This document shows positions 10,173-20,123 of a stretch of DNA of 34,926 nt, one piece after another. The stretch spans positions 1-34,926 of the forward strand of contig JAOPZF010000267.1 in the NCBI GenBank assembly GCA_025964255.1. The letters are read 5' to 3'. Each line of letters begins with the position of its first letter. Within the stretch, counting starts at the first letter, position 1. The translations under genes and the position numbers were made by a program. The notes beneath the pieces were generated by a model. The model did not search any database and was not told where the DNA came from. It was given only the letters and a program-made list of their open reading frames with translations. This stretch comes from Solirubrobacterales bacterium. Lineage in GTDB: Bacteria; Actinomycetota; Thermoleophilia; Solirubrobacterales; 70-9.

Positions 10173-10859
10173 CTACTCGCCGAGAGCCTCGCGCAGTTTC
10201 GTGATCTCGCCTTTGAGGTCGAGGAGGTCGGCTTCGAGGCGGTCGAGTCGCGCGGTCTCGTCGGCCACCGAGGGCTGAGCCGGCGCGGCGGGGCGGTCGT
10301 CGTGTGGCCCGTCGGCCGGGGCTAGGGACGACCGCGCCGGGACGTCGGGCACAAGGTCGACGGCATCGTCGCCACCGAGGACCTGCTCGTAGCGCTCCTC
10401 CTTCTGGCCGGGGCGGCGCGGGTGGCGGATCACGAAACCTCGGCCGATCAGGCGCTCGAGCACCTCGTTCACCGCGGCGAGGTCGGCGAAGCCGCCCGAG
10501 TAGCGCTCGGTGCGCTGTTTGAGCTCGCCCGGCGTCTGGGCGCCGCGCAGCATCAGCACCGCGAGGATGTTCACCTCGGCGTCGTCGATCGACAGGGCCT
10601 CCGGCAGCAGGTGCCGGTATTTGCGGGCCCGCGAGCCGGCGCCGCTGGTGAGCCGCGTCCAGCCGCGCAGCGCGGTCCGCCGCAGGGCGTCGGACACCGT
10701 CTGCTCGTCGTAGTCGACGACCGGGTCGCGGTTCGTCGACTGGTTGCAGGCCAGACGCAGCGCGTTCAGCGAGAGCGGGTAGACGTCGGGCGTCGTCCGC
10801 TGCTTCTCGACGAGGCAGCCGACGACGCGGATCTCGACGGCATCGGCCTCGGCGGGCAC
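10173..10859 (-). CDS. YceH family (DUF480) protein
   Basis: The 228-aa protein matches the YceH/DUF480 family of two tandem winged-helix domains. The first half has EIRVVGCLVEKQRTTPDVYPLSLNALRLACNQSTNRDPV, the family signature, then DEQTVSDALRRTALRGWTRL. The second has ILAVLMLRGAQTPGELKQRTERY and a helix ending in RLIGRGFVIRHPRRPGQKEERYEQVLGG. A linker with Pro and Asp leads to a C-terminal coiled-coil-like segment (DRLEADLLDLKGEITKLREALGE). The start is GTG, 7 nt after the pyrE stop, so it is probably cotranscribed with pyrE. The molecular role of the family is not established; DNA binding or a regulatory role is plausible from the fold. Confidence 0.88.
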   Translation of the reverse strand: MPAEADAVEIRVVGCLVEKQRTTPDVYPLSLNALRLACNQSTNRDPVVDYDEQTVSDALRRTALRGWTRLTSGAGSRARKYRHLLPEALSIDDAEVNILAVLMLRGAQTPGELKQRTERYSGGFADLAAVNEVLERLIGRGFVIRHPRRPGQKEERYEQVLGGDDAVDLVPDVPARSSLAPADGPHDDRPAAPAQPSVADETARLDRLEADLLDLKGEITKLREALGE

Positions 10860-10866
10860 CGTGGCC

Positions 10867-11451
10867 TCAGCCCCGGTCGGGGCGCTCGGGGTAGAGCTCG
10901 TCGATCGTGACCAGGGCGCGGTAGGGCGCCTCGGCGGCTGCTTCGATCTTCTCCGCCCCGCCCGCCAGGCGGTCGACGACCGCGATGACGCCGGCGATCT
11001 CGAGGCCCTCCTCGCGGCAGCGTCCGATCGCCTTCGCGGTCGATCCGCCGGTGGTCACGGTGTCCTCGACGATCAGCGCCTTGACGCCCGCCTCGACCGG
11101 GCCCTCGACCCAGCGCTGCAGGCCGTGCTGCTTCTTCTCGCCGCGGACGAAGAAGGCGACGAGGTCGTCGCCCGCGGGCCCGGCGAGTGCCGCGCAGGCG
11201 GGCGGGATCGCCGCCGTCGCCGGTCCGCCGACCGCGGTCGCACCGAGCTCGTGCGCCGCCGCCGCGATCAGCTCACCGGCGGCCCGGAAACCGCCCGGTC
11301 GCATCAGCGTGCGGCGCGCGTCGACGTAGTACTGGGCGATCGCCCCGCTCGCCAGCGTCACTTCGCCGATCACCAGCGAGTGCTCGCGCAGTTCGTCGAG
11401 CAGCGTCTGCTTGGCGGCAGTGAGGTCAGCCACGCGACTGGGCGCTACCAC
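10867..11451 (-). CDS. pyrE: Orotate phosphoribosyltransferase
   Basis: This enzyme transfers the phosphoribosyl group of PRPP to orotate, giving OMP in pyrimidine synthesis. The PRPP-binding motif ALIVEDTVTTGGST is at about 125-138, preceded by the flexible-loop region FFVRGEKKQHG (about 101-110) with catalytic lysines. YYVDARRTLMRPGG near the N-terminus fits the orotate-side region, and the 194-aa length is usual. The GTG start overlaps the stop of the upstream L,D-transpeptidase gene by 7 nt. A second in-frame GTG at 11433 would give a shorter N-terminus that also fits the family. No other pyr genes are in the window. Together with the L,D-transpeptidase and yceH genes it forms a tightly packed minus-strand unit. 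Confidence 0.92.
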   Translation of the reverse strand: MVAPSRVADLTAAKQTLLDELREHSLVIGEVTLASGAIAQYYVDARRTLMRPGGFRAAGELIAAAAHELGATAVGGPATAAIPPACAALAGPAGDDLVAFFVRGEKKQHGLQRWVEGPVEAGVKALIVEDTVTTGGSTAKAIGRCREEGLEIAGVIAVVDRLAGGAEKIEAAAEAPYRALVTIDELYPERPDRG

Positions 11452-12419
11452 ACATAAATCGACTCACCGAAATGAAACGATTCGTAGATCCGCGGCTGGT
11501 CGGCGATGAAGGTCCGCACGCAACCGTGGCTGGCGGCGTAGTTCGGGACTTCGGCGTAGCCATGGACCGCGTAGCCGTTGTGCCAGTAGAAGGAATCGAC
11601 CATTCCCTCCGAGTTGGTCCCCGGTTCCTGGCGGTAAAATTCATAGTGGCCGGTGATCGTCGGGGTCGAGGGCTTGCCGGTCGATACCGGGTAGATCGCG
11701 AACGGCTTGCCGTTCTTCACCAGCACCAGGACCTGCTTGTCGAGCGGCACCTCCGCGTGTTCACCCGCGTCCGGATACTTCACGTGGTACCCGCCCTTGC
11801 CGGCGAAGACCGCCCCGACCAGCCCCGCGCCGGCCTTTTTGGTGCGGTCCATGTCGTTGACCTTGCGGTAGGCGAGGACCTCGCGGCCGAGCCGCGCAGT
11901 GAAGCAGTCGCCGTTGCCGGAGACGTAACCCATCTTCGCCAGGTCGGTCTTGAAAGCCCCGACGACGTCGGTGCATTCGCCGGGATTCAGATTCGGGAAG
12001 GTCACGGTCCAGCTCTTGCGCACGGTCGAGTCGCCGCCGAGCGCCGCGGTCGCCACGTGCTTGGCGCTGACCGCGTACTTCCCGGCGGCCCTGACGATGA
12101 CGTCGGATTCGAAGGTGCCGGTTTCGTTCGGGCCCTGCTCCACCGCGACCCGGTGGTGGCTGGTGACCTTCTGGCCGTTCAAGTAGAAGGTGACTTCGAC
12201 GAACTGGCCGGGGACGTAGGGCGAGACGGTGCCCTTGGCCGTGACCGTGTCGAGGATCGTCGCCTTGCCGCCCGAGAGGCCGGTCGGTTCGACCTTGACC
12301 GTCGCGTTCGGCACTTCCGCCTTGGGCGGCGCGGGCGACGGCTTCGGCGCGGCAGCCGCGGTGGCGGGCACCGCCAGGAGCGCGGCGGCTCCGACGGCGA
12401 GGGCGAGGCGGCGGATCAC
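11445..12419 (-). CDS. Secreted L,D-transpeptidase (YkuD family)
   Basis: This protein probably forms 3-3 cross-links in peptidoglycan or attaches proteins to it, acting outside the membrane. It has a signal peptide (MIRRLALAVGAAALLAVPATAAAA), a Pro/Lys-rich start, then two beta-rich domains of about 90 and 80 aa. The catalytic YkuD domain occupies the last about 120 residues. Its signature is intact: His286 in HGYAEVP and SHGCVR at 297-302 with nucleophile Cys300. Its GTG start is preceded by TAGGAT at 7 nt, so the transcript is probably leaderless. The stop overlaps the pyrE start. The first beta-rich part contains a phrase on extended polymer-like strands (VTFYLNGQKVTSH), resembling Ig-like domains found in actinobacterial L,D-transpeptidases. 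Confidence 0.9.
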   Translation of the reverse strand: MIRRLALAVGAAALLAVPATAAAAPKPSPAPPKAEVPNATVKVEPTGLSGGKATILDTVTAKGTVSPYVPGQFVEVTFYLNGQKVTSHHRVAVEQGPNETGTFESDVIVRAAGKYAVSAKHVATAALGGDSTVRKSWTVTFPNLNPGECTDVVGAFKTDLAKMGYVSGNGDCFTARLGREVLAYRKVNDMDRTKKAGAGLVGAVFAGKGGYHVKYPDAGEHAEVPLDKQVLVLVKNGKPFAIYPVSTGKPSTPTITGHYEFYRQEPGTNSEGMVDSFYWHNGYAVHGYAEVPNYAASHGCVRTFIADQPRIYESFHFGESIYVW

Positions 12420-12426
12420 GGCGGAA

Positions 12427-12432
12427 ATCCTA
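12427..12432 (-). promoter_or_regulatory. Leaderless-type -10 box TAGGAT
   Basis: Read on the minus strand, TAGGAT lies exactly 7 nt before the GTG start of the L,D-transpeptidase, the same hexamer and spacing as at the Ddn-like gene. Confidence 0.6.
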
Positions 12433-12482
12433 CTGGCAAACGCCTGACGGGCAGCTAAATCCCTACCCGAACGGGGACGCGC

Positions 12483-14027
12483 TCACTGCCCGAGTAACGC
12501 GATCGTGTTGTTGAGCATGTGGAGGAGGATCCCGGGGATGATCGAGCCGGTCCGCTCGTAGAGCAGCGCCAGCAGGAAGCCGAAGACGATCAGCGGCGGC
12601 ACCGCGGTGATCCCGGTCAGCGCGTGGAGGGCGCCGAAGATGAGGCCGCAGATCAGCGCCGCCGCCAGCCGCGGCAGCTTCTCCCGCAGGCCGCCGAAGA
12701 GCATGCCGCGGAAGCAGGTCTCCTCGGCGATCGGCGCCGCGATCACGATCAGGAGGATCTGCAGGAAGGTCGGGCCGAAGCTTTCGGCGATGTCCTTCTG
12801 CTTCGGTTCGGTGATCACCACCGAGTAGAAGATCGTGAAGGCCAGGTAGATCACGAAGGCGAGCGCCATCCAGCCGAAGGCCGACGGCTTGAAGGCGCGG
12901 AAGCCGAGACGTTCGAGGATCGTCCGCAGCCCTTTGGCGCCTTTCATCGAGGCGAGCGCCATCGGCACCAGCAGGAAGCCCAGCTCGGTCGCGATCTGGG
13001 AGATGACGCTGCCGAGCGTGGTCAGGGTGCCGTCTAGCTCACGGGCGACGAAGAGGTGACCGGAGCCGGCGGAGGCGATCGAACCGACTTCGTTGCCGGC
13101 TTCGATCGGCTTACCTTCGAGCCGTTCCGGACCCGGTCCGAAGGCGTAGTTGCCGGTGACGTAGGGGTAGATGTCACCGTTCGGTTCGGCGATCAGAATG
13201 AGGCCTTTGGCGCCGAGCGTCAGCGAGGCGAATTCGTCGCCCGATTCGGGCTTCAGTTCCCAGAGGAACTTGCCGGTCGGCGCGAACGCGAAGACGGTGC
13301 CATCGTCCTTGCTCGACAAGACGTAGACGTCGCCGAAGCCGGCCCCTCGTTCTTCGTTGACCGCGATGTCGTTGTCGTTCTTGCCGAAGTCGAAGGAGCC
13401 GGCGGGGGAATCGACCGCTTCGAGCACGCCGACGTATTCGCCCTTGGCGTTCAGCCTGACGACCTCGTCGTTGGCGGCGTCGATCGCGTAGACCCCGCCG
13501 GTGGCGGGCGCGACGGCGATCGCTTCCGGTTCGATCGGCACGGGCGTCGACAGTTCTCGCCCTTCGACCGTCGCCAGCTGCTTCGCCGGCCCCTTCCCCG
13601 CCGCTTGGTACTTGAGGATCCGGCCCTGGCTCTTCTCCGAGATCCAGAGCGTGCCGCGCCGCGAGTCGAACGCCACGCCTTGCGAATCTTCGAGCCCACC
13701 GACCCGCTGCGCGCCGATTTCCTGGCCGAGGGCGCCGAAGACGCGCACTTCGTCTTCGTGGTCGGCGAAGAGGCGGTGCGCCTTGGAGTCGACCGCGAGC
13801 GCCGAGCTGTTGCCGCTGTCGAAGCTCGCGCCGCTCGAGTAGTCGGGCGGGAAGAGCGCTTCGATCTTGCCGTTCTGGCTGCCGACGATCAGCGCCGGGA
13901 CCGAGAGGAAGAGGCCGACGCACAGCGCGATCAGGACGGCGAAGACCGCCGGCCACGGTCCCCAGTTCGCGTAGGGGAATTCGCGCTTATCTTTGGCGAC
14001 TTCGCCGCCGACTAGGTTGGCCTCCAT
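12483..14027 (-). CDS. CPBP intramembrane protease with an inserted beta-propeller
   Basis: The 514-aa protein starts with one membrane helix (about 26-48). Residues about 65-335 are a soluble domain with repeats such as GVAFDSRRGTLWISE, AIAVAPATGGVYAIDAANDEVV and DVYVLSSKDDGTVFAFAP, typical of NHL/SMP-30-type six-bladed propellers. The remainder is polytopic and ends in a CPBP (CAAX/Abi) protease core: EETCFR at 435-440 (Glu435, Glu436, Arg440), His468 in GALHAL, and HMLNN at 503-507. All expected catalytic residues are present. The propeller thus sits between the first and later helices, predicted outside the membrane. The frame extends about 100 codons further upstream, but that part runs antisense through the MscS-like gene and looks non-coding; ATG 14027 is chosen. 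Glu codons are mostly GAA in the propeller and GAG near the protease motifs. Confidence 0.82.
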   Translation of the reverse strand: MEANLVGGEVAKDKREFPYANWGPWPAVFAVLIALCVGLFLSVPALIVGSQNGKIEALFPPDYSSGASFDSGNSSALAVDSKAHRLFADHEDEVRVFGALGQEIGAQRVGGLEDSQGVAFDSRRGTLWISEKSQGRILKYQAAGKGPAKQLATVEGRELSTPVPIEPEAIAVAPATGGVYAIDAANDEVVRLNAKGEYVGVLEAVDSPAGSFDFGKNDNDIAVNEERGAGFGDVYVLSSKDDGTVFAFAPTGKFLWELKPESGDEFASLTLGAKGLILIAEPNGDIYPYVTGNYAFGPGPERLEGKPIEAGNEVGSIASAGSGHLFVARELDGTLTTLGSVISQIATELGFLLVPMALASMKGAKGLRTILERLGFRAFKPSAFGWMALAFVIYLAFTIFYSVVITEPKQKDIAESFGPTFLQILLIVIAAPIAEETCFRGMLFGGLREKLPRLAAALICGLIFGALHALTGITAVPPLIVFGFLLALLYERTGSIIPGILLHMLNNTIALLGQ

Positions 14028-14442
14028 GGCGCGTGCAGTCTCACAGGTCTCCCGCTCGACGCGGACCCGGCTGACGATCCTGCGGCGCCTCCTGCTGCTG
14101 GCCGCCTTCCTCGTCGTCGCGGCGATCGTGCTCGCCCAGTTCACCTCGCTGGGCCGGCTCGCCGCGGGGATCTTCGCCTCCACCGCGGTGATCGGGCTGA
14201 TCATCGGCTTCGCCGCCCAGAACACGATCTCCAACCTGATCGCCGGAGTGCTGATCGCGATCACCCAGCCGATCCGGATCGGCGACCGGATCAGCTTCGA
14301 AGACCGCGAAGGCCGGGTCACCGACATCACGCTCAGCTACACCTTCATCGACCCCGGCGACGGCAGTCAGGTCGTCGTCCCCAACCAGCTGCTCGTCCAG
14401 GGCATCGTCCACAACCACTCCGGAGCCGACAGCAAGGCTTAG
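14026..14442 (+). CDS. Small MscS-like channel protein, possibly C-terminally truncated
   Basis: The 138-aa protein has two hydrophobic helices (about 20-40 and 44-65). The second, with AAGIFASTAVIGLIIGFAAQNTISN, resembles the pore helix of MscS. It is followed by the MscS beta domain: GVLIAITQPIRIGDRISFEDREGRVTDITLSYTFI and VVVPNQLLVQGIVHNHS. Family members usually continue for a further alpha/beta domain, which is missing. The stop codon TAG lies within the TTAG at the border of the palindromic element that follows, so the element may have cut the gene short. The ATG (14026-14028) interlocks with the start codon of the divergent protease gene (14025-14027). Osmotic tension release is the family's role; activity of this short form is uncertain. 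Confidence 0.78.
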   Translation: MARAVSQVSRSTRTRLTILRRLLLLAAFLVVAAIVLAQFTSLGRLAAGIFASTAVIGLIIGFAAQNTISNLIAGVLIAITQPIRIGDRISFEDREGRVTDITLSYTFIDPGDGSQVVVPNQLLVQGIVHNHSGADSKA

Positions 14443-14604
14443 GGCCTATCCGAGAACCCGCGTGTGCGGCTGGCGAGTGCCGCACCAAGCGGGGGTAGGA
14501 CGCAGGGCGGCCGAATGGCATCGCCATTTGGACGACCGAGGACGATGCCCCGCGAAGTGTGTGCGGTGCCGCCAGACGTGCGCGGGGGTTTTCGGATAGG
14601 CCCT
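14443..14604. mobile_element. MITE-like palindromic element, 162 bp, TTAG target duplication
   Basis: The left end GGGCCTATCCGAGAACCC matches the reverse complement of the right end (GGGTTTTCGGATAGGCCC) with one mismatch, and the pairing continues imperfectly through GCTGGCG, GCCGCAC and GCGGGG to a central ATGGC-ATC-GCCAT. The element therefore folds into one long hairpin. TTAG occurs directly on both sides (14439-14442 and 14605-14608), as for insertions with a 4-bp YTAR target, a habit of IS5-group elements. There is no transposase inside. It ends 13 nt before the penicillin-binding protein gene and so touches its promoter. Confidence 0.65.
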
Positions 14605-14605
14605 T

Positions 14606-14611
14606 TAGTCT
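14606..14611 (+). promoter_or_regulatory. -10 box TAGTCT at the edge of the palindromic element
   Basis: TAGTCT lies 6 nt before the ATG of the penicillin-binding protein gene with no Shine-Dalgarno sequence, fitting a leaderless start. It begins inside the right-hand TTAG copy, so any -35 contact falls in the element's right arm. Confidence 0.5.
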
Positions 14612-14617
14612 GCGGGC

Positions 14618-16768
14618 ATGACGCAGCGGGGACGGCGTCGGGAGCGGCGCCGTGGCAGCGTGGCAGGCAAGTTGGCGATCGTCGCCGGGGCGGTGCTTGC
14701 GCTGATTGCGATCGCCGTGATCGCGGTCACCTCCTGGGTCCTGAACATTGCCGCCGACGCGCCCTCGCTGGCGAGCTGCAAGCAGGCCGAGCGGCACGGC
14801 AACTCGGTCGTCTACGCGGCGAACGGGGAGCGGCTCGGGGCGATCTCCTCGCCAGAAGCGAGCGCGCCGGTGCCGGTCACCAAACTGCCGCGGCAGCTCG
14901 AGTTGGCGACGGTGGCGATCGAGGACCAGCGCTTCTTCCAGCACGGCGGGCTCGACACGCTCGGCATCCTCCGCGCCGCGGTCACCGACCTCGAAGCGGG
15001 TGAAGCGACGCAGGGCGGTTCGACGATCACCCAGCAGCTGGTGCGGAACCTATGCATCGAGCACCCGGAAAAGAACATCGAACGGAAGATCGTCGAAGCG
15101 AAGCTGGCGCTGGAGTACTCCGAACACCATTCGAAGCGGCAGATCCTCGGCCAGTATCTGAACACGGTGACCTACGGGACGCTCGAAGGGACGACCGCGG
15201 TGGGGGTCGGGGCGGCGTCGAAGATCTACTTCTCGCGGCCGGTGTGGAAGCTGGGGACGGTGCAGCTGGCGCTGCTCGCCGGGCTCCCGCAGGCGCCCTC
15301 GGAGTACAACCCGCTCCTCTATCCGAAGGCGGCGGTGGCGCGGCGCAACGAGGTGCTGCGGAAGATGGCGAAGCTCGGCTACCTGGCGCCGAGGCGGGCG
15401 CGGGGGCTGGAAAAACATGGTCTGGAGCTCAGTCCTTCCCATGATTACTTCGCCCACCAGGAGCCCTACTTCTTCGACTACGTCGAACACCTGCTGATCG
15501 CCCACTACGGGGCGCGCGAGGTGCGCCGCGGCGGGCTCCAGGTGCACACGACGCTGAGCCCGGAGCTGCAGCGGGTCGGCCGCGCGGCGATCTCCGAAGC
15601 CCTCTACGAACCGACCGACCCGGCCTCGGCGCTGGTCTCGATCGACCCCCGCAACGGCGACATCCGGGCGATGGTCAACAGCACCGACTACGCCGAGGAC
15701 CAGTTCAACCTCGCCGCCCAGGGACACCGGCAGCCCGGTTCGACCTTCAAGGCGTTCGTGCTGACGACCGCAATCAAGCAGGGCGTCGACCCCTACTCGA
15801 CCTACTACGAATCGAAGCCGCTCGACCTGAACCTGCCCGAATACGGACACTGGGAAGTCCACACCGCCGACGAGGGCTACCAGGGGACGATCAACCTGAA
15901 GCAGGCGACGGTCACCTCCGACAACACCGTGTTCGCGCAGCTCGACCTCGACGTCGGGCCACAGAACGTCGCCGCGACGGCGAAGTCGATGGGGATCACG
16001 ACGCACCTGCAGGGGCTGCCAGCGGAAGGGATCGGCGGGCTCAAGTACGGGGTCAGCCCGCTGGAACTGAGCGACGCCTACGCGACGCTGGCGTCGGGCG
16101 GGATCCGCCATCGACCCGTCGCGATCGCCAAGGTCGTGCGGCCGGGCGGGGAGGTCGAACACCCGCAGGGGCCGGAACCGAAGCGGATCCTGAGCCCGGC
16201 GGTCGCCTGGCAGGTGACCCGTCTCCTGCGCGACAACATCACCGAAGGGACCGGGACGGCGGCCTACACCGGCTGCGTCGGGCAGGCGGGCAAGACGGGG
16301 ACGACCGACAACGAGACCGACGCCTGGTTCTCCGGCTACCAGCCGGACCTGGCGACCGCGGTCTGGGTCGGCTACCCGCAGTCGAACGCGATCTCGATGA
16401 CCGACGTCCACGGGATCACCGTCTTCGGCGGCACCTTCCCGGCCGAAATCTGGCACTCCCTCTACGCGAATGCCGGGGTCTCATGCGAGGAATTCCACGA
16501 ACCGGAAGACCAGATCGAATGGGCGCCGGGATACGGCGAGTACGTCGCCGCGGCGCCGGGGACCGAGGCGGCGAAAAAGGCCAAAGGCAGCAAAGGCAAC
16601 GGCGAAGCGGGCGAAGAACTGCCCGGACAAGGGACGGTCGGCGGCTACGACCCGAACGCCTACGCCCCCGGCGCCGGCCAAGAACCGGCCCCCCTCCCGC
16701 CCCGGTTGCCACCGAAGTACGGCGGCCCGGAAGCGGGCGTCGCCGGCGGCCAGGCAGCCGGTAGGTAA
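14618..16768 (+). CDS. Class A penicillin-binding protein (transglycosylase/transpeptidase)
   Basis: This bifunctional enzyme polymerises lipid II and cross-links peptides. A basic cytoplasmic start (MTQRGRRRERRRGS) precedes one membrane helix (about 18-42). The GT51 domain (about 60-240) shows EDQRFFQHGG with catalytic Glu102, GGSTITQQLVRN at 133-144 and the RKIVEAKLALEYS block. The transpeptidase domain (about 330-620) has STFK at 375-378 (Ser375 nucleophile), SDN at 434-436 and KTG at 559-561. The last about 90 residues are Lys/Glu then Pro/Gly-rich and probably disordered in the wall. Length (716 aa) is normal. The gene follows the MITE-like element directly. Later envelope genes (glycosyltransferase, flippase-like) are close by. 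All catalytic motifs are intact. Confidence 0.94.
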   Translation: MTQRGRRRERRRGSVAGKLAIVAGAVLALIAIAVIAVTSWVLNIAADAPSLASCKQAERHGNSVVYAANGERLGAISSPEASAPVPVTKLPRQLELATVAIEDQRFFQHGGLDTLGILRAAVTDLEAGEATQGGSTITQQLVRNLCIEHPEKNIERKIVEAKLALEYSEHHSKRQILGQYLNTVTYGTLEGTTAVGVGAASKIYFSRPVWKLGTVQLALLAGLPQAPSEYNPLLYPKAAVARRNEVLRKMAKLGYLAPRRARGLEKHGLELSPSHDYFAHQEPYFFDYVEHLLIAHYGAREVRRGGLQVHTTLSPELQRVGRAAISEALYEPTDPASALVSIDPRNGDIRAMVNSTDYAEDQFNLAAQGHRQPGSTFKAFVLTTAIKQGVDPYSTYYESKPLDLNLPEYGHWEVHTADEGYQGTINLKQATVTSDNTVFAQLDLDVGPQNVAATAKSMGITTHLQGLPAEGIGGLKYGVSPLELSDAYATLASGGIRHRPVAIAKVVRPGGEVEHPQGPEPKRILSPAVAWQVTRLLRDNITEGTGTAAYTGCVGQAGKTGTTDNETDAWFSGYQPDLATAVWVGYPQSNAISMTDVHGITVFGGTFPAEIWHSLYANAGVSCEEFHEPEDQIEWAPGYGEYVAAAPGTEAAKKAKGSKGNGEAGEELPGQGTVGGYDPNAYAPGAGQEPAPLPPRLPPKYGGPEAGVAGGQAAGR

Positions 16769-16801
16769 CCGAGCATCGACGCGGGGCTGGCCTATGGGTT
16801 G

Positions 16802-17911
16802 ATGTGGGCGGGGTTCCTCGCCTACCTCGGCGTGCTCGTCGCCGCTCCGCGGCTCGGCGTGCGGTTCGTCGGCGGGCTGATCGGCGTCGCGGTGGTGGCC
16901 TTCGCCTGCGCCCCGGTCCTGCTCTCGCACGACGCCTTCAGCTACGTCGACTACGCCCGCCTCGGGGTGAAGCACGGACTCGATCCTTACGTCAACGCGC
17001 CGGAAGCCGCGCCGACCGACCCCGCCTTCGCCCAAGTCACCTGGACGGAAACCCCGAGCGCCTACGGCCCGCTCTTCACGATCGCGACCTACCCGCTGGC
17101 ATGGCTGCCGGTGTGGGCGGCGATCGCGGTGCTGAAGGCGGTCGCCGCGATCTCGGTCCTCGGCCTCGCCTGGGTCGTCTCCCGGCTCGCCGCCTGCCGC
17201 GGAGTCGACGAGTCCCGAGCCGCCGCCTTCGTCGCCCTCAACCCCCTGGTCCTGGTCCACGTCGTCGGCGGCGCCCACAACGACGGCCTCGCGATGCTGC
17301 TGGCGATGCTCGGCGTCGCGGCCTTGGTCGCCCGCCGCGAGGCCGCTTCCGGCGCGGCGCTGGTCGCCAGCGTCGCGATCAAGTCCTCGTCCCTCTTCGT
17401 CGCCCCATTCGCCTTCGTCCACACCCTGCGCGACTCGATGTTGATGGGCCGAAAACCGGACCATATGGCGGGTTTTCGGCCCATCAATCGGTTCGTCCTC
17501 GGCGCGGTGGGGGCAGCCGTCGTCTTCGCGGTCGCGGGCTACGTGGCGTTCGGGTGGCACTGGCTTCACGCCTTCGGGCTCGCCGGCGAAAACCAGGGAC
17601 GGACCAGTCACCTTTCGATCCCGGTGACGTTCGCCCGGCTGACGGGAATCGACGAGGGCGCGGTGCGGGTCGCGGCGCTCGTCCTCTTCGGCGTCGCCGT
17701 CGTCTGGCTTCTGTGGAAGACCTGGCAGGGCTTCGATTGGATCCGTGCCGCTGCCTGGGCGGGCTTCGGCCTGCTGCTTGCGACCTCGTGGCTCTTGCCC
17801 TGGTACCTCGTCTGGCCGCTGCCGCTCGTCGCCGTCGCCCGCGACCGCCGCCTCGCCGTCCTCCTCCTCGCCCTCACCGCCTACCAGCTAGGCGCCCGCA
17901 TCCCCCTCTAG
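16802..17911 (+). CDS. Polytopic membrane glycosyltransferase (GT-C type, mannosyltransferase-like)
   Basis: The 369-aa protein has about nine hydrophobic segments and resembles polyprenol-phosphate-sugar-dependent GT-C enzymes (MptB/GT87-like). The first outer loop has SHDAFSYVDYARLGVKHGLDPYV, whose Asp and YxxY/GLxPY pattern is the typical catalytic region, then YGPLF. Transfer of mannose or a similar sugar to a lipid-linked glycan outside the membrane is inferred. ATG 16802 is used; the same frame is open back to the penicillin-binding protein stop at 16768 and codes for a membrane-like stretch (AGLAYGL), so the true start may be further upstream or the N-terminus shortened. Codons about 213-229 are a perfect palindrome that adds LMGRKPDHMAGFRPIN in frame. 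The TAG stop overlaps the stop of the convergent gene in a shared CTAG. Confidence 0.75.
   Translation: MWAGFLAYLGVLVAAPRLGVRFVGGLIGVAVVAFACAPVLLSHDAFSYVDYARLGVKHGLDPYVNAPEAAPTDPAFAQVTWTETPSAYGPLFTIATYPLAWLPVWAAIAVLKAVAAISVLGLAWVVSRLAACRGVDESRAAAFVALNPLVLVHVVGGAHNDGLAMLLAMLGVAALVARREAASGAALVASVAIKSSSLFVAPFAFVHTLRDSMLMGRKPDHMAGFRPINRFVLGAVGAAVVFAVAGYVAFGWHWLHAFGLAGENQGRTSHLSIPVTFARLTGIDEGAVRVAALVLFGVAVVWLLWKTWQGFDWIRAAAWAGFGLLLATSWLLPWYLVWPLPLVAVARDRRLAVLLLALTAYQLGARIPL
17441..17487. repeat. Palindromic insert with perfect 17-bp arms inside a coding frame
   Basis: TTGATGGGCCGAAAACC (17441-17457) is the exact reverse complement of GGTTTTCGGCCCATCAA (17471-17487). The 13-nt centre itself contains the palindrome CCATATGG. 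The host frame stays open and gains about 16 hydrophilic residues between membrane helices. The arm contains GGGCC-GAAAACC, which is the MITE arm sequence (GGGCC-TATCC-GAAAACC) minus TATCC, hinting at a related element. Confidence 0.8.
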
Positions 17912-18984
17912 AGAATTTCGGGGGTGTGGATGGTGGTGGCGTTCTCGTCGCCCGCCGCTTCCTCCTCGGGAGAGGCGTGGAGGATGCCGGTGTGGATCGT
18001 CCAGCCCTTGCGCCGGCCGAGGACGGTGACGCCGCCGACGTAGATCAATTCGCCGACCGTCATCACGCCGCGGACGGCGATCGAGATCAGCGAGCCGACG
18101 GCGAAGCTGCGGCTCGGCAGCGCCGCCTTGACCGCCCAGGCGAAGGCCGCGTCGCGGACGCCGAGGCCGGCCGGGGCGACCAACGTCACCAACGCGGCGA
18201 AATAGCCGATCGCCTGCGCGGAGCCGACCAGAAGGATGTCCGAGTAGGGGATGTAGGTGACCGAGCGGGCGACGCTGTAGATGCCGAACGCGACCACGAA
18301 CCAGACCAGCGAGTAGTAGATGATCAGCGCGATCACGTGGCGCAGCGGGATCACCACCGGCAGCGGATCGCGGCCGAAGGCCCGTAGCGCCCGATCCGAC
18401 AGCGGCCGGAAGACCTGCGGGCTGAGGATCAGGATCGCGGCCGGGATCAGCAGCAGCACCGCCCAGCGGATCGGGTCGCCCTGGAGATCGGGGTGCTTGA
18501 TGATGAAGTAGGCGGCGACGACGATCGCCGAAGTGGCCGAGATCGCCTGTTCATAGACGATCGAGGCGACCGAGATGCGGCGCGGCACCCCCGCCCGCTC
18601 GCTCAGCAGCACCCGCCCGAGCACGTAGAGGATGCTCCCCGGCACGTAGCGCGCCAACAGCGGCTGGCCCCAGGCGACCTGGGCGCGGCCGAAGCCGATC
18701 CGGTAGCCGAGGCTGCGCAGCGTCAGGTCCCAGCCGAAGGCCGAGAGGACGAAGTAGAGCGGCAGGATGATCAGCGCCGGGATCAGCCAAAGGACCTGGA
18801 AATGGACCCCTTCGCTCTTGATCTCCGACCAGTCGCTGATGACCGTGAGGACGAGGAAGCCGAAGATGACGACGGCGAGGCCGACCTGCAAGGCCAGCCG
18901 CACGCCCTTGCTGCGGGGCGGCTTGGTCCCGAATTTCGCCCCTGCGTCACCGATCCGGTGGAGGAGTGGTTGCTTTCGCTCCAC
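17908..18984 (-). CDS. Flippase-like integral membrane protein (LPG_synthase_TM / UPF0104)
   Basis: The 358-aa protein has about eight membrane segments and the hallmarks of the LPG synthase transmembrane family (AglD-like, UPF0104): RYVPGSILYVLGRVLLSERAGV at about 112-133, with Pro-Gly after a basic residue, and the late VAPAGLGVRDAAFAW. It lacks the soluble C-terminal DUF2156 synthase domain of MprF, so it is the membrane part alone, as in lipid or lipid-linked glycan handling proteins. Its neighbour on the plus strand is a GT-C glycosyltransferase, and such pairs are often involved in surface polysaccharide assembly. The GTG start lies 8 nt after a -10 box TATCGT. The two convergent genes end in the same CTAG (17908-17911). 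Confidence 0.82.
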   Translation of the reverse strand: MERKQPLLHRIGDAGAKFGTKPPRSKGVRLALQVGLAVVIFGFLVLTVISDWSEIKSEGVHFQVLWLIPALIILPLYFVLSAFGWDLTLRSLGYRIGFGRAQVAWGQPLLARYVPGSILYVLGRVLLSERAGVPRRISVASIVYEQAISATSAIVVAAYFIIKHPDLQGDPIRWAVLLLIPAAILILSPQVFRPLSDRALRAFGRDPLPVVIPLRHVIALIIYYSLVWFVVAFGIYSVARSVTYIPYSDILLVGSAQAIGYFAALVTLVAPAGLGVRDAAFAWAVKAALPSRSFAVGSLISIAVRGVMTVGELIYVGGVTVLGRRKGWTIHTGILHASPEEEAAGDENATTIHTPEIL

Positions 18985-18992
18985 TCCCCGGC

Positions 18993-18998
18993 ACGATA
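18993..18998 (-). promoter_or_regulatory. -10 box TATCGT, 8 nt before GTG
   Basis: Read on the minus strand this hexamer precedes the GTG start of the flippase-like gene at 18984. It shares a 65-bp divergent gap with the thiL promoter. Confidence 0.5.
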
Positions 18999-19037
18999 GA
19001 GATCGGTCCAGAGCCAGGCGCTCGCCCCACGTTCTGG

Positions 19038-19043
19038 GATAGT
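19038..19043 (+). promoter_or_regulatory. -10 box GATAGT, 6 nt before ATG of thiL
   Basis: GATAGT then six bases lead to the ATG at 19050. No Shine-Dalgarno sequence fits this short distance, so a leaderless transcript is likely. Confidence 0.45.
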
Positions 19044-19049
19044 CGGCTC

Positions 19050-20123
19050 ATGGGCGAGTTCGAGCTGCTGGCGGCGCTTCGCGAGCGGTTGCCGACCGCG
19101 GGGCCACGCCTCGTCCTCGGCAGCGGCGACGACGCCGCGATCACCGTGCCGGGCGGCGCGGTCGCGACCTCGGTCGACGCGCTGGTCGAGGGCGTCCACT
19201 TCCGCCGCGAGACCGCCTCGTTGCGCCAGATCGGCCGCAAGGCGCTCTCCACCGCACTGTCGGACCTGGCGGCGATGGGCGCGGAGGCCGGTGAGGCCTA
19301 CATCGTGCTCGGCGCGCCCGAGGGGATGAGCGAGGCGGAGCTGCTCGAGCTGGGCGAGGGGATGGCGGCGGTCGCGGGAGAGACCGGGACGGCGATCGCC
19401 GGCGGCGACCTCACCCGCGCGCCGGTGCTTACCCTGGCCGTGACGGTGACCGGCTACGCCGCCCGCGCGGAGGACTTCGTCACCCGCGGCGGCGCCCGAC
19501 CCGGCAATGCCTTGGTCGTGACCGGAGAGTTGGGAGGCGCGGCAGCGGGACTGGTGCTGATCGAAGAGCCGGGGCTCGCGGCCGCCGCGTTCGGCGCCGA
19601 CGCGACCGACCTCGCGACCTTCGACCGCGGCAAGCAGGCGCGGCCACGAGACCTCGACCTGGTGAGCGCCGACGCCCTGCGCCGCCGTCAACTTGACCCC
19701 ACCCCACTCCTCGCCGCCGGGCACGCGCTCGCCGAGGCCGGCGCCACCGCAATGATCGACGTCTCCGACGGGCTCGCCGGGGACGCGAACCACGTCGCCG
19801 TCGCCAGCGACGCGCTGCTCACGATCGACGCCGACGCCCTGCCGATCGCTCCAGGCGTCGCCGCGATCGCCGCTGCCGCCGACCGCGATCCGCTCGAGCT
19901 CGCCGCCTCGGGCGGCGAGGACTACGAGCTTTTCGCCGCGCTACCGCCGGACGCCGTCGTCGCCGCCCAACGGGCTCTCGTCGCGCTGGGCATGCCGCTC
20001 ACCGTCATCGGCCAGGTCGAGTCCGCGGGGATCGCGGGACCGCGCGCCGAGCTCAGGCGGCGCGGTGGCGAAGCCCTGCCGAGCCGTGGCTTCGATCAGC
20101 TGCGCCCGCGTAAGCCCCGGTGA
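19050..20123 (+). CDS. thiL: Thiamine-monophosphate kinase
   Basis: ThiL phosphorylates thiamine monophosphate to the active cofactor thiamine diphosphate. The 357-aa protein has the family motifs in order: GEFELLAALRERL at the start, GSGDDAA at 25-31 (metal-binding Asp pair), SVDALVEGVHF, KALSTALSDLAAMGAE, GGDLTRAP, VTGELGGAAAG, MIDVSDGLAGD and ASGGEDYELFAALP. A frame upstream is open to 18966, but the ATG at 19050 fits the family's N-terminus and sits right behind a -10 box. No other thi gene is nearby. Its 3' end overlaps the convergent FlgM-like frame by 71 nt. Confidence 0.93.
   Translation: MGEFELLAALRERLPTAGPRLVLGSGDDAAITVPGGAVATSVDALVEGVHFRRETASLRQIGRKALSTALSDLAAMGAEAGEAYIVLGAPEGMSEAELLELGEGMAAVAGETGTAIAGGDLTRAPVLTLAVTVTGYAARAEDFVTRGGARPGNALVVTGELGGAAAGLVLIEEPGLAAAAFGADATDLATFDRGKQARPRDLDLVSADALRRRQLDPTPLLAAGHALAEAGATAMIDVSDGLAGDANHVAVASDALLTIDADALPIAPGVAAIAAAADRDPLELAASGGEDYELFAALPPDAVVAAQRALVALGMPLTVIGQVESAGIAGPRAELRRRGGEALPSRGFDQLRPRKPR

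Follow-up and report, generated by a model that had tools for sequence, protein, structure and literature searches.

A CPBP intramembrane protease with a predicted NHL-type propeller in its TM1-TM2 loop, apparently gained once within a single genus

What might a beta-propeller do in the middle of a membrane protease, and how did it come to be there? The question is raised by one gene in a 34,926-nucleotide stretch of DNA from a Solirubrobacterales bacterium (assembly GCA_025964255.1, contig JAOPZF010000267.1), which as a whole is called the window in this text. The original prediction, made from the sequence alone, had described a propeller lying between the membrane helices of a CPBP protease. 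Its coordinates are correct, and the strand, which it had left unstated, is the minus strand. The translation places EExxxR, His468 and HxxxN at the residues it had named, and the proposed layout of one helix, a propeller-like stretch and the remaining helices is confirmed by hydropathy and by predicted strands (Table 1).

Table 1. Features of the CPBP protease gene and its neighbours, in window coordinates
Feature	Coordinates	Strand	Basis and remarks
CPBP protease with inserted NHL-type propeller (predicted)	12483..14027	-	514 aa plus stop; translation, profile, orthologues
N-terminus and TM1, residues 1-50, helix 25-48	13878..14027	-	model, hydropathy; also in non-propeller orthologues
Inserted NHL-type propeller (predicted), residues 51-331	13035..13877	-	models, Foldseek; missing in 6/12 genus members
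Protease part TM2-TM7, residues 332-514	12486..13034	-	profile, model, hydropathy
PF02517 (Rce1-like/CPBP) domain	12501..12770	-	profile match
EExxxR motif, E435, E436, R440 (residues 435-440)	12708..12725	-	translation
Motif His468	12624..12626	-	translation
HxxxN motif, H503, N507 (residues 503-507)	12507..12521	-	translation
L,D-transpeptidase (YkuD), conserved neighbour	11445..12419	-	63 bases downstream, same strand; PF03734, synteny
Small MscS-type gene, divergent, ATG overlaps CPBP ATG	14026..14442	+	PF00924
PBP1A-type transglycosylase/transpeptidase, conserved neighbour	14618..16768	+	domain match, synteny

The protein belongs to the CPBP family by its motifs and by a PF02517 score above the curated cut-off (profile search, residues 420-509, 80.5 bits against 22.4, E 1.1e-22). 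It is the single PF02517 match in the source genome, which is 90.9% complete with 6.5% contamination. Hydropathy (KD, averaged over 19 residues) peaks at residues 30-48 and next rises above 1.2 only at 341-359. EExxxR, the further His and HxxxN fall within membrane helices, as judged from hydropathy and a low-confidence model, and all three were found by eye in the window protein and in each of the 11 genus orthologues printed. With the CPBP or type II CAAX proteases (PF02517), such as Rce1 and the myxosortase MrtX, it shares the placing of EExxxR in helix four and of HxxxN in the last of its seven helices, together with a further His; for MrtX, passages of PMC11980579 locate the two motifs in TM4 and TM7. 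What the window protein adds to these enzymes is a stretch of about 280 propeller residues in the TM1-TM2 loop. The protein stays below the cut-offs of the myxosortase-like NCBIfam families (MrtS 45.2 of 130, MrtJ 42.5 of 75 and Mrt_core 26 of 100 bits). The ABC permease/CPBP fusion NF041647 is also a long CPBP chain and matches residues 341-512 with 80 bits against a cut-off of 435, but what accompanies its CPBP part is a permease placed upstream and not an inserted propeller. In the outer TM3-TM4 loop, residues 405-418 (window 12774-12815) carry the pattern PxQxDIAxxFG, which was seen by eye in the window protein, the 11 genus orthologues, G019 and G021, with a propeller or without one, and which may belong to the substrate site.

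A full-length AlphaFold2 model, for which four sequences were aligned, shows strands through residues 54-329 followed by helices. Per ten residues, its pLDDT is mostly 63-87 at residues 71-330 (two blocks have 54 and 58) and 34-40 at residues 51-70; for the membrane part it is under 50. Modelled alone, the domain reached a mean pLDDT of 76.9 and a pTM of 0.83, with about 41-50 in its first 20 residues. The structure prediction proposed as a check on the original reading thus returned a propeller, and a propeller-free fold did not emerge. The best Foldseek matches are NHL domains (TRIM71, TRIM2, TRIM3, Thin) and the designed Pizza6, with a TM-score of about 0.6; the NHL domains head the list at E about 2e-11, and the PknD sensor domain stands lower at E 4.7e-10.

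The same relationship is found by sequence. When four orthologues are combined in a profile, it matches PknD (1rwi) with E 1.8e-6 and also finds the Pizza and Cake designs, with designed Pizza propellers down to 1.3e-17. A search with the single sequence gave no match to solved propellers below E 0.026 (the best being Pizza2-SR). PF01436 (NHL) is absent among the Pfam matches listed for the propeller, which include only weak propeller families below their cut-offs. Neither Pfam nor NCBIfam gives the domain a name above cut-off: the best NCBIfam propeller match is ScyF/NHL with 18.1 of 350 bits, and PF08450 (SMP-30/gluconolactonase) stays below its cut-off, with a match in one of four members at E 0.035. 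The inserted domain is therefore predicted to be an NHL-type propeller by fold and by relation to PknD, though not by Pfam score.

In the models, the strands at 54-58 and 66-68 come first, then blades 1-5 and then the strands at 314-320 and 325-329. This order points to six blades and suggests that the first two strands, which have low confidence in both models, complete the last blade, so that the chain would enter and leave the ring on one face. The propeller thus probably closes on itself. Linkers of five to six residues join it to TM1 (49-53) and to TM2 (330-335), and 7 of their 11 positions are invariant.

We compared 12 genomes of the genus, numbered G000 (the window) to G011. In five of them (G000, G005, G006, G007 and G008) a single frame encodes the full layout. 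In a sixth carrier, G011, the two halves are present but separated by 93 consecutive N, an assembly gap or a masked stretch. The remaining six (G001, G002, G003, G004, G009 and G010) have an orthologue without the propeller at the same locus. These orthologues match the query from about residue 330 to 511-514, and the TM1 segment (about residues 1-50; 15-53 in G004) stands directly before the protease match with a short loop between. The carrier bins include Actinomycetota bacterium SZAS-9, -10 and -15 (close-relative search, 3 loci). Genome size is 3.8-4.7 Mb in the six carriers and 2.4-3.4 Mb in the six non-carriers (rounded, from drafts), with contamination estimates of 3-6.5% and 1-5%, respectively.

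In a tree of the protease part, a branch with support 97/99 separates the six carriers from the non-carriers, which are themselves poorly resolved; the propeller requires 1 change of state on this tree, and none of 500 shuffles was as low. FastTree analysis of five neighbour genes (2002 columns) also unites the six carriers, with support 1.000, and nests them among the non-carriers when G019 and G021 serve as outgroup. Since the carriers form one clade, a small branch of uncultured Actinomycetota nested among non-carriers, the trees argue for a single in-frame gain of the domain within one genus, which is far simpler than repeated loss. The suspicion that the parts of the protein have different histories is thus borne out by the genome comparison.

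Of 399 class genomes, each scored for up to 3 candidates, 352 had a match to a full-length profile, and among the matches listed, which do not include G007 and G011, only those of G000, G005, G006 and G008 span the propeller. At E 1e-25, the profile matched a single one of 296 genomes from the phylum, namely that of the window itself; scans of this kind, in class or phylum, would miss a CPBP protein bearing an unrelated propeller. The TM1-TM2 distance was measured by hydropathy in 78 loci chosen either for their better matches or for long open frames, comprising the carrier G008, nine second copies of loci already counted and 68 other genes. An inserted propeller was found in none of these 68 other CPBP genes, in which 7-23 residues separate the two hydropathy peaks (read from the list).

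A profile of the propeller gave some match in 23 of 50 genomes of the family. All six carriers reach E 3e-111 or better, and no match in the other genomes is better than 7e-10. Upon opening 18 of the weaker family loci, we recognized NHL-like repeats by eye in 17, at 23-33% identity to the propeller; locus L086 proved to be a chance match only. PF01436 scored above cut-off in all four segments scanned from the family NHL-repeat proteins. Four such proteins (L072, L073, L074 and L089) are made of the same repeat stock, at 26-29% identity to the propeller, but are long chains with more regular repeats and have no CPBP helices in the stretches read. Within the window's own genome no donor of the propeller was found, the only other match having E 0.09. 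The NHL-repeat stock of the family is the likely source, with matches too weak to name a donor.

The original prediction had also taken a shift in glutamate codons as a sign of separate histories. The shift is real, although the numbers are small: residues 51-331 of the window gene have 21 GAA and 3 GAG codons, and residues 332-514 have 3 GAA and 5 GAG (Fisher P 0.012). As an argument for separate histories, however, it is weak, because the L,D-transpeptidase, PBP1A and the NHL-repeat proteins have the same bias. In a sample of nine genomes (the six carriers plus G002, G003 and G009), the GAA share in carriers is 0.80 for the propeller, 0.72 for the L,D-transpeptidase, 0.72 for the MscS-type gene (18 codons), 0.64 for PBP1A, 0.45 and 0.37 for two membrane genes, 0.27 for the protease part, and 0.15, 0.11 and 0.10 for pyrE, thiL and YceH. 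In this small sample, then, codon usage tends to divide envelope from cytoplasmic sequence. A foreign origin of the propeller finds no support in the glutamate codons, since the envelope genes next door similarly prefer GAA. Within the window (10173-20123) and in loci L025-L035, GAA dominates in the L,D-transpeptidase, PBP1A and NHL-repeat proteins and GAG in pyrE, thiL and YceH. The GAA share of the L,D-transpeptidase is 0.30 in the three propeller-free genomes versus 0.72 in carriers.

On which side of the membrane would the propeller lie? The TM2-TM3 loop has 6 K+R versus 1 D+E, the TM4-TM5 loop 3 versus 1 and the propeller 24 versus 43. These loop charges agree with a placement of the two loops inside and of the acidic propeller outside, as had been proposed for it; the residues ahead of TM1 have no clear positive charge (K+R 3, D+E 4). 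Invariant positions were not significantly enriched on the presumed membrane face of the propeller (26/86 versus 12/68, P 0.09) in a test for which some strand borders were set by hand.

We propose that a propeller gained once, in frame, would occupy the first extracytoplasmic loop of a CPBP glutamic intramembrane protease, with TM1 running into it and the chain leaving it about six residues before TM2. It may be pressed close to the outer face of the membrane, over TM1/TM2 and next to the lateral opening that leads to the active site. There it could serve as exosite and gate, either capturing and admitting particular membrane-anchored exported proteins or responding to an envelope ligand, and would so decide what the EExxxR/His/HxxxN centre cuts. 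The ligand or wall sensor coupled to proteolysis that the original prediction had in mind would be a putative role of this kind. The idea arose because the loop charges put the propeller outside and because, in an AlphaFold 3 model of myxosortase, a CPBP protease that trims exported proteins, the lipid of the substrate enters between TM2 and TM4 (passages of PMC11980579). That the inserted propeller is an outer exosite or gate controlling CPBP cleavage has, in our estimate, about an even chance. The genomes and sequences show the layout, the motifs, the single gain and the constraint, and it is the outside placement, the contact, the control and the class of substrate that we infer. Several observations speak against this reading. 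The membrane part of the model has such low pLDDT that a contact between propeller and gate is not predicted, and the quicker divergence of the propeller relative to the protease part would be expected of a passive domain too. The low confidence of the ring-closing strands, the face test, the pairwise dN/dS of the propeller, the CPBP-fold members thought not to be proteases and the charge of the segment ahead of TM1 also weigh against it.

The closest parallel is PknD, the receptor kinase of Mycobacterium tuberculosis, whose NHL propeller is joined to a membrane helix on the outer side and whose kinase lies in the cytoplasm. Both enzymes would thus have a propeller outside the membrane, related by sequence and fold, but that of the window protein lies inside the membrane enzyme, and this enzyme is an intramembrane protease. 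According to passages of PMC3601408, the PknD propeller sensor has six blades and a ligand that is unknown. An intramembrane glutamic protease controlled from outside, with the sensor principle of PknD moved onto a CPBP enzyme in one step and in one genus, is a tentative reading to which we give somewhat less than an even chance.

Among the papers listed from the open-access full-text literature, titles and abstract openings yielded no description of a CPBP or CAAX protein with a propeller or NHL layout, in keeping with the earlier remark that no described system of this kind was known. Passages of PMC11980579 call the prokaryotic CPBP proteases widespread and 'largely unexplored'. A recent, single, lineage-bounded insertion of a likely binding domain bears on how they choose their substrates. 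The propeller-free orthologues at the same locus are natural matched controls, so that control from outside could be tested by swapping one domain. The protein also suggests how a receptor may originate, by a closed propeller with adjoining ends being dropped into a membrane loop.

It is possible, though rather unlikely, that the propeller is a passive tether, which binds surface proteins or the cell wall and does no more than hold the protease in position, or is itself put on display by the protease, leaving the choice of cleavage unchanged. Its sequence relatives are long NHL-repeat proteins, exported as judged by eye, and the genes next door encode the wall enzymes YkuD and PBP1A. Its faster change would fit as well: pairwise identity is 53-71% in the propeller (15 pairs) versus 67-88% in the protease part (10 pairs). 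However, a tether could presumably sit at a terminus, whereas this domain is inserted exactly into the TM1-TM2 loop through short, conserved linkers.

We consider it clearly unlikely that the CPBP part is a non-proteolytic scaffold, that is, a membrane chaperone or transferase partner with the propeller as its outer binding module. LnsB and SpdC have the CPBP fold and are thought not to be proteases (passages of PMC7387801), but they are without the catalytic residues, whereas EExxxR, His and HxxxN are present in 5/5 complete propeller forms. The better conservation of the protease part compared with the propeller does not favour a scaffold either.

Still less probable is a nearly neutral insertion, tolerated as the two ends of the propeller adjoin and as yet without a function of its own. 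The predicted strand order would let the ring close on itself, and the pairwise NG86 dN/dS of the propeller is high at 0.51-0.77; the protease part has 0.29-1.08, and both ranges are likely overstated in the GC-rich codon usage. We used a null in which each observed base change was reassigned at random among codons that have its original base in that codon position. In residues 51-322, amino-acid differences fell below the lowest of 300 shuffles in 4/4 genome pairs, and those in the protease part did so in 3/3 pairs tested. Since they fell below all shuffles, the propeller is constrained as a protein, if less tightly than the protease. Its invariant stretches, and a frame kept without stops in 5/5 complete carriers, likewise argue against neutrality. 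An assembly or frameshift error that fused two genes, a refutation named with the original prediction, can be dismissed: the carrier genomes are drafts in about 100-380 contigs, but the window and four other genomes have a single frame and the same junctions at 63-71% identity, and the agreement of five separate assemblies counts strongly against a merger.

As far as the contigs reach, the locus is the same with or without the propeller. The thiL, LPG-synthase-like, GT87, PBP1A and MscS-type genes lie on one side, and the L,D-transpeptidase, pyrE and DUF480/YceH on the other. The conservation of neighbours, proposed earlier as a check, thus holds in carriers and non-carriers; in the synteny comparison, G007 showed no MscS-type gene. 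The YkuD, PBP1A and MscS-type neighbours fit an envelope role, but as they flank the propeller-free form too, they bear on the protease and not on the propeller. Elsewhere in the family, a CPBP protein at a similar locus occurs as an RDD-CPBP fusion (L017 and L016, in G020 and G013), near an L,D-transpeptidase with 33-34% identity to that of the window. Its extra domain, however, is N-terminal and of the RDD family, Pfam-confirmed for G020 and alike by eye in G013.

The divergent CPBP and MscS-type genes have a common palindromic CATG start (window 14024-14029), at which their ATGs overlap. An ATG is present on both strands in 13/13 genomes checked (the 12 of the genus and G019), and the divergent ORF has 138-141 aa in 12 of them and 15 aa in G007. 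In 12/13 genomes the MscS strand has TAGGTT or TAAGTT 7 bases ahead of its ATG (window 14013-14018), within the CPBP codons for N4-L5; we take it to resemble the -10 box of a leaderless transcript. The sole exception, GAGGTT, is found in G007, the genome without the MscS ORF.
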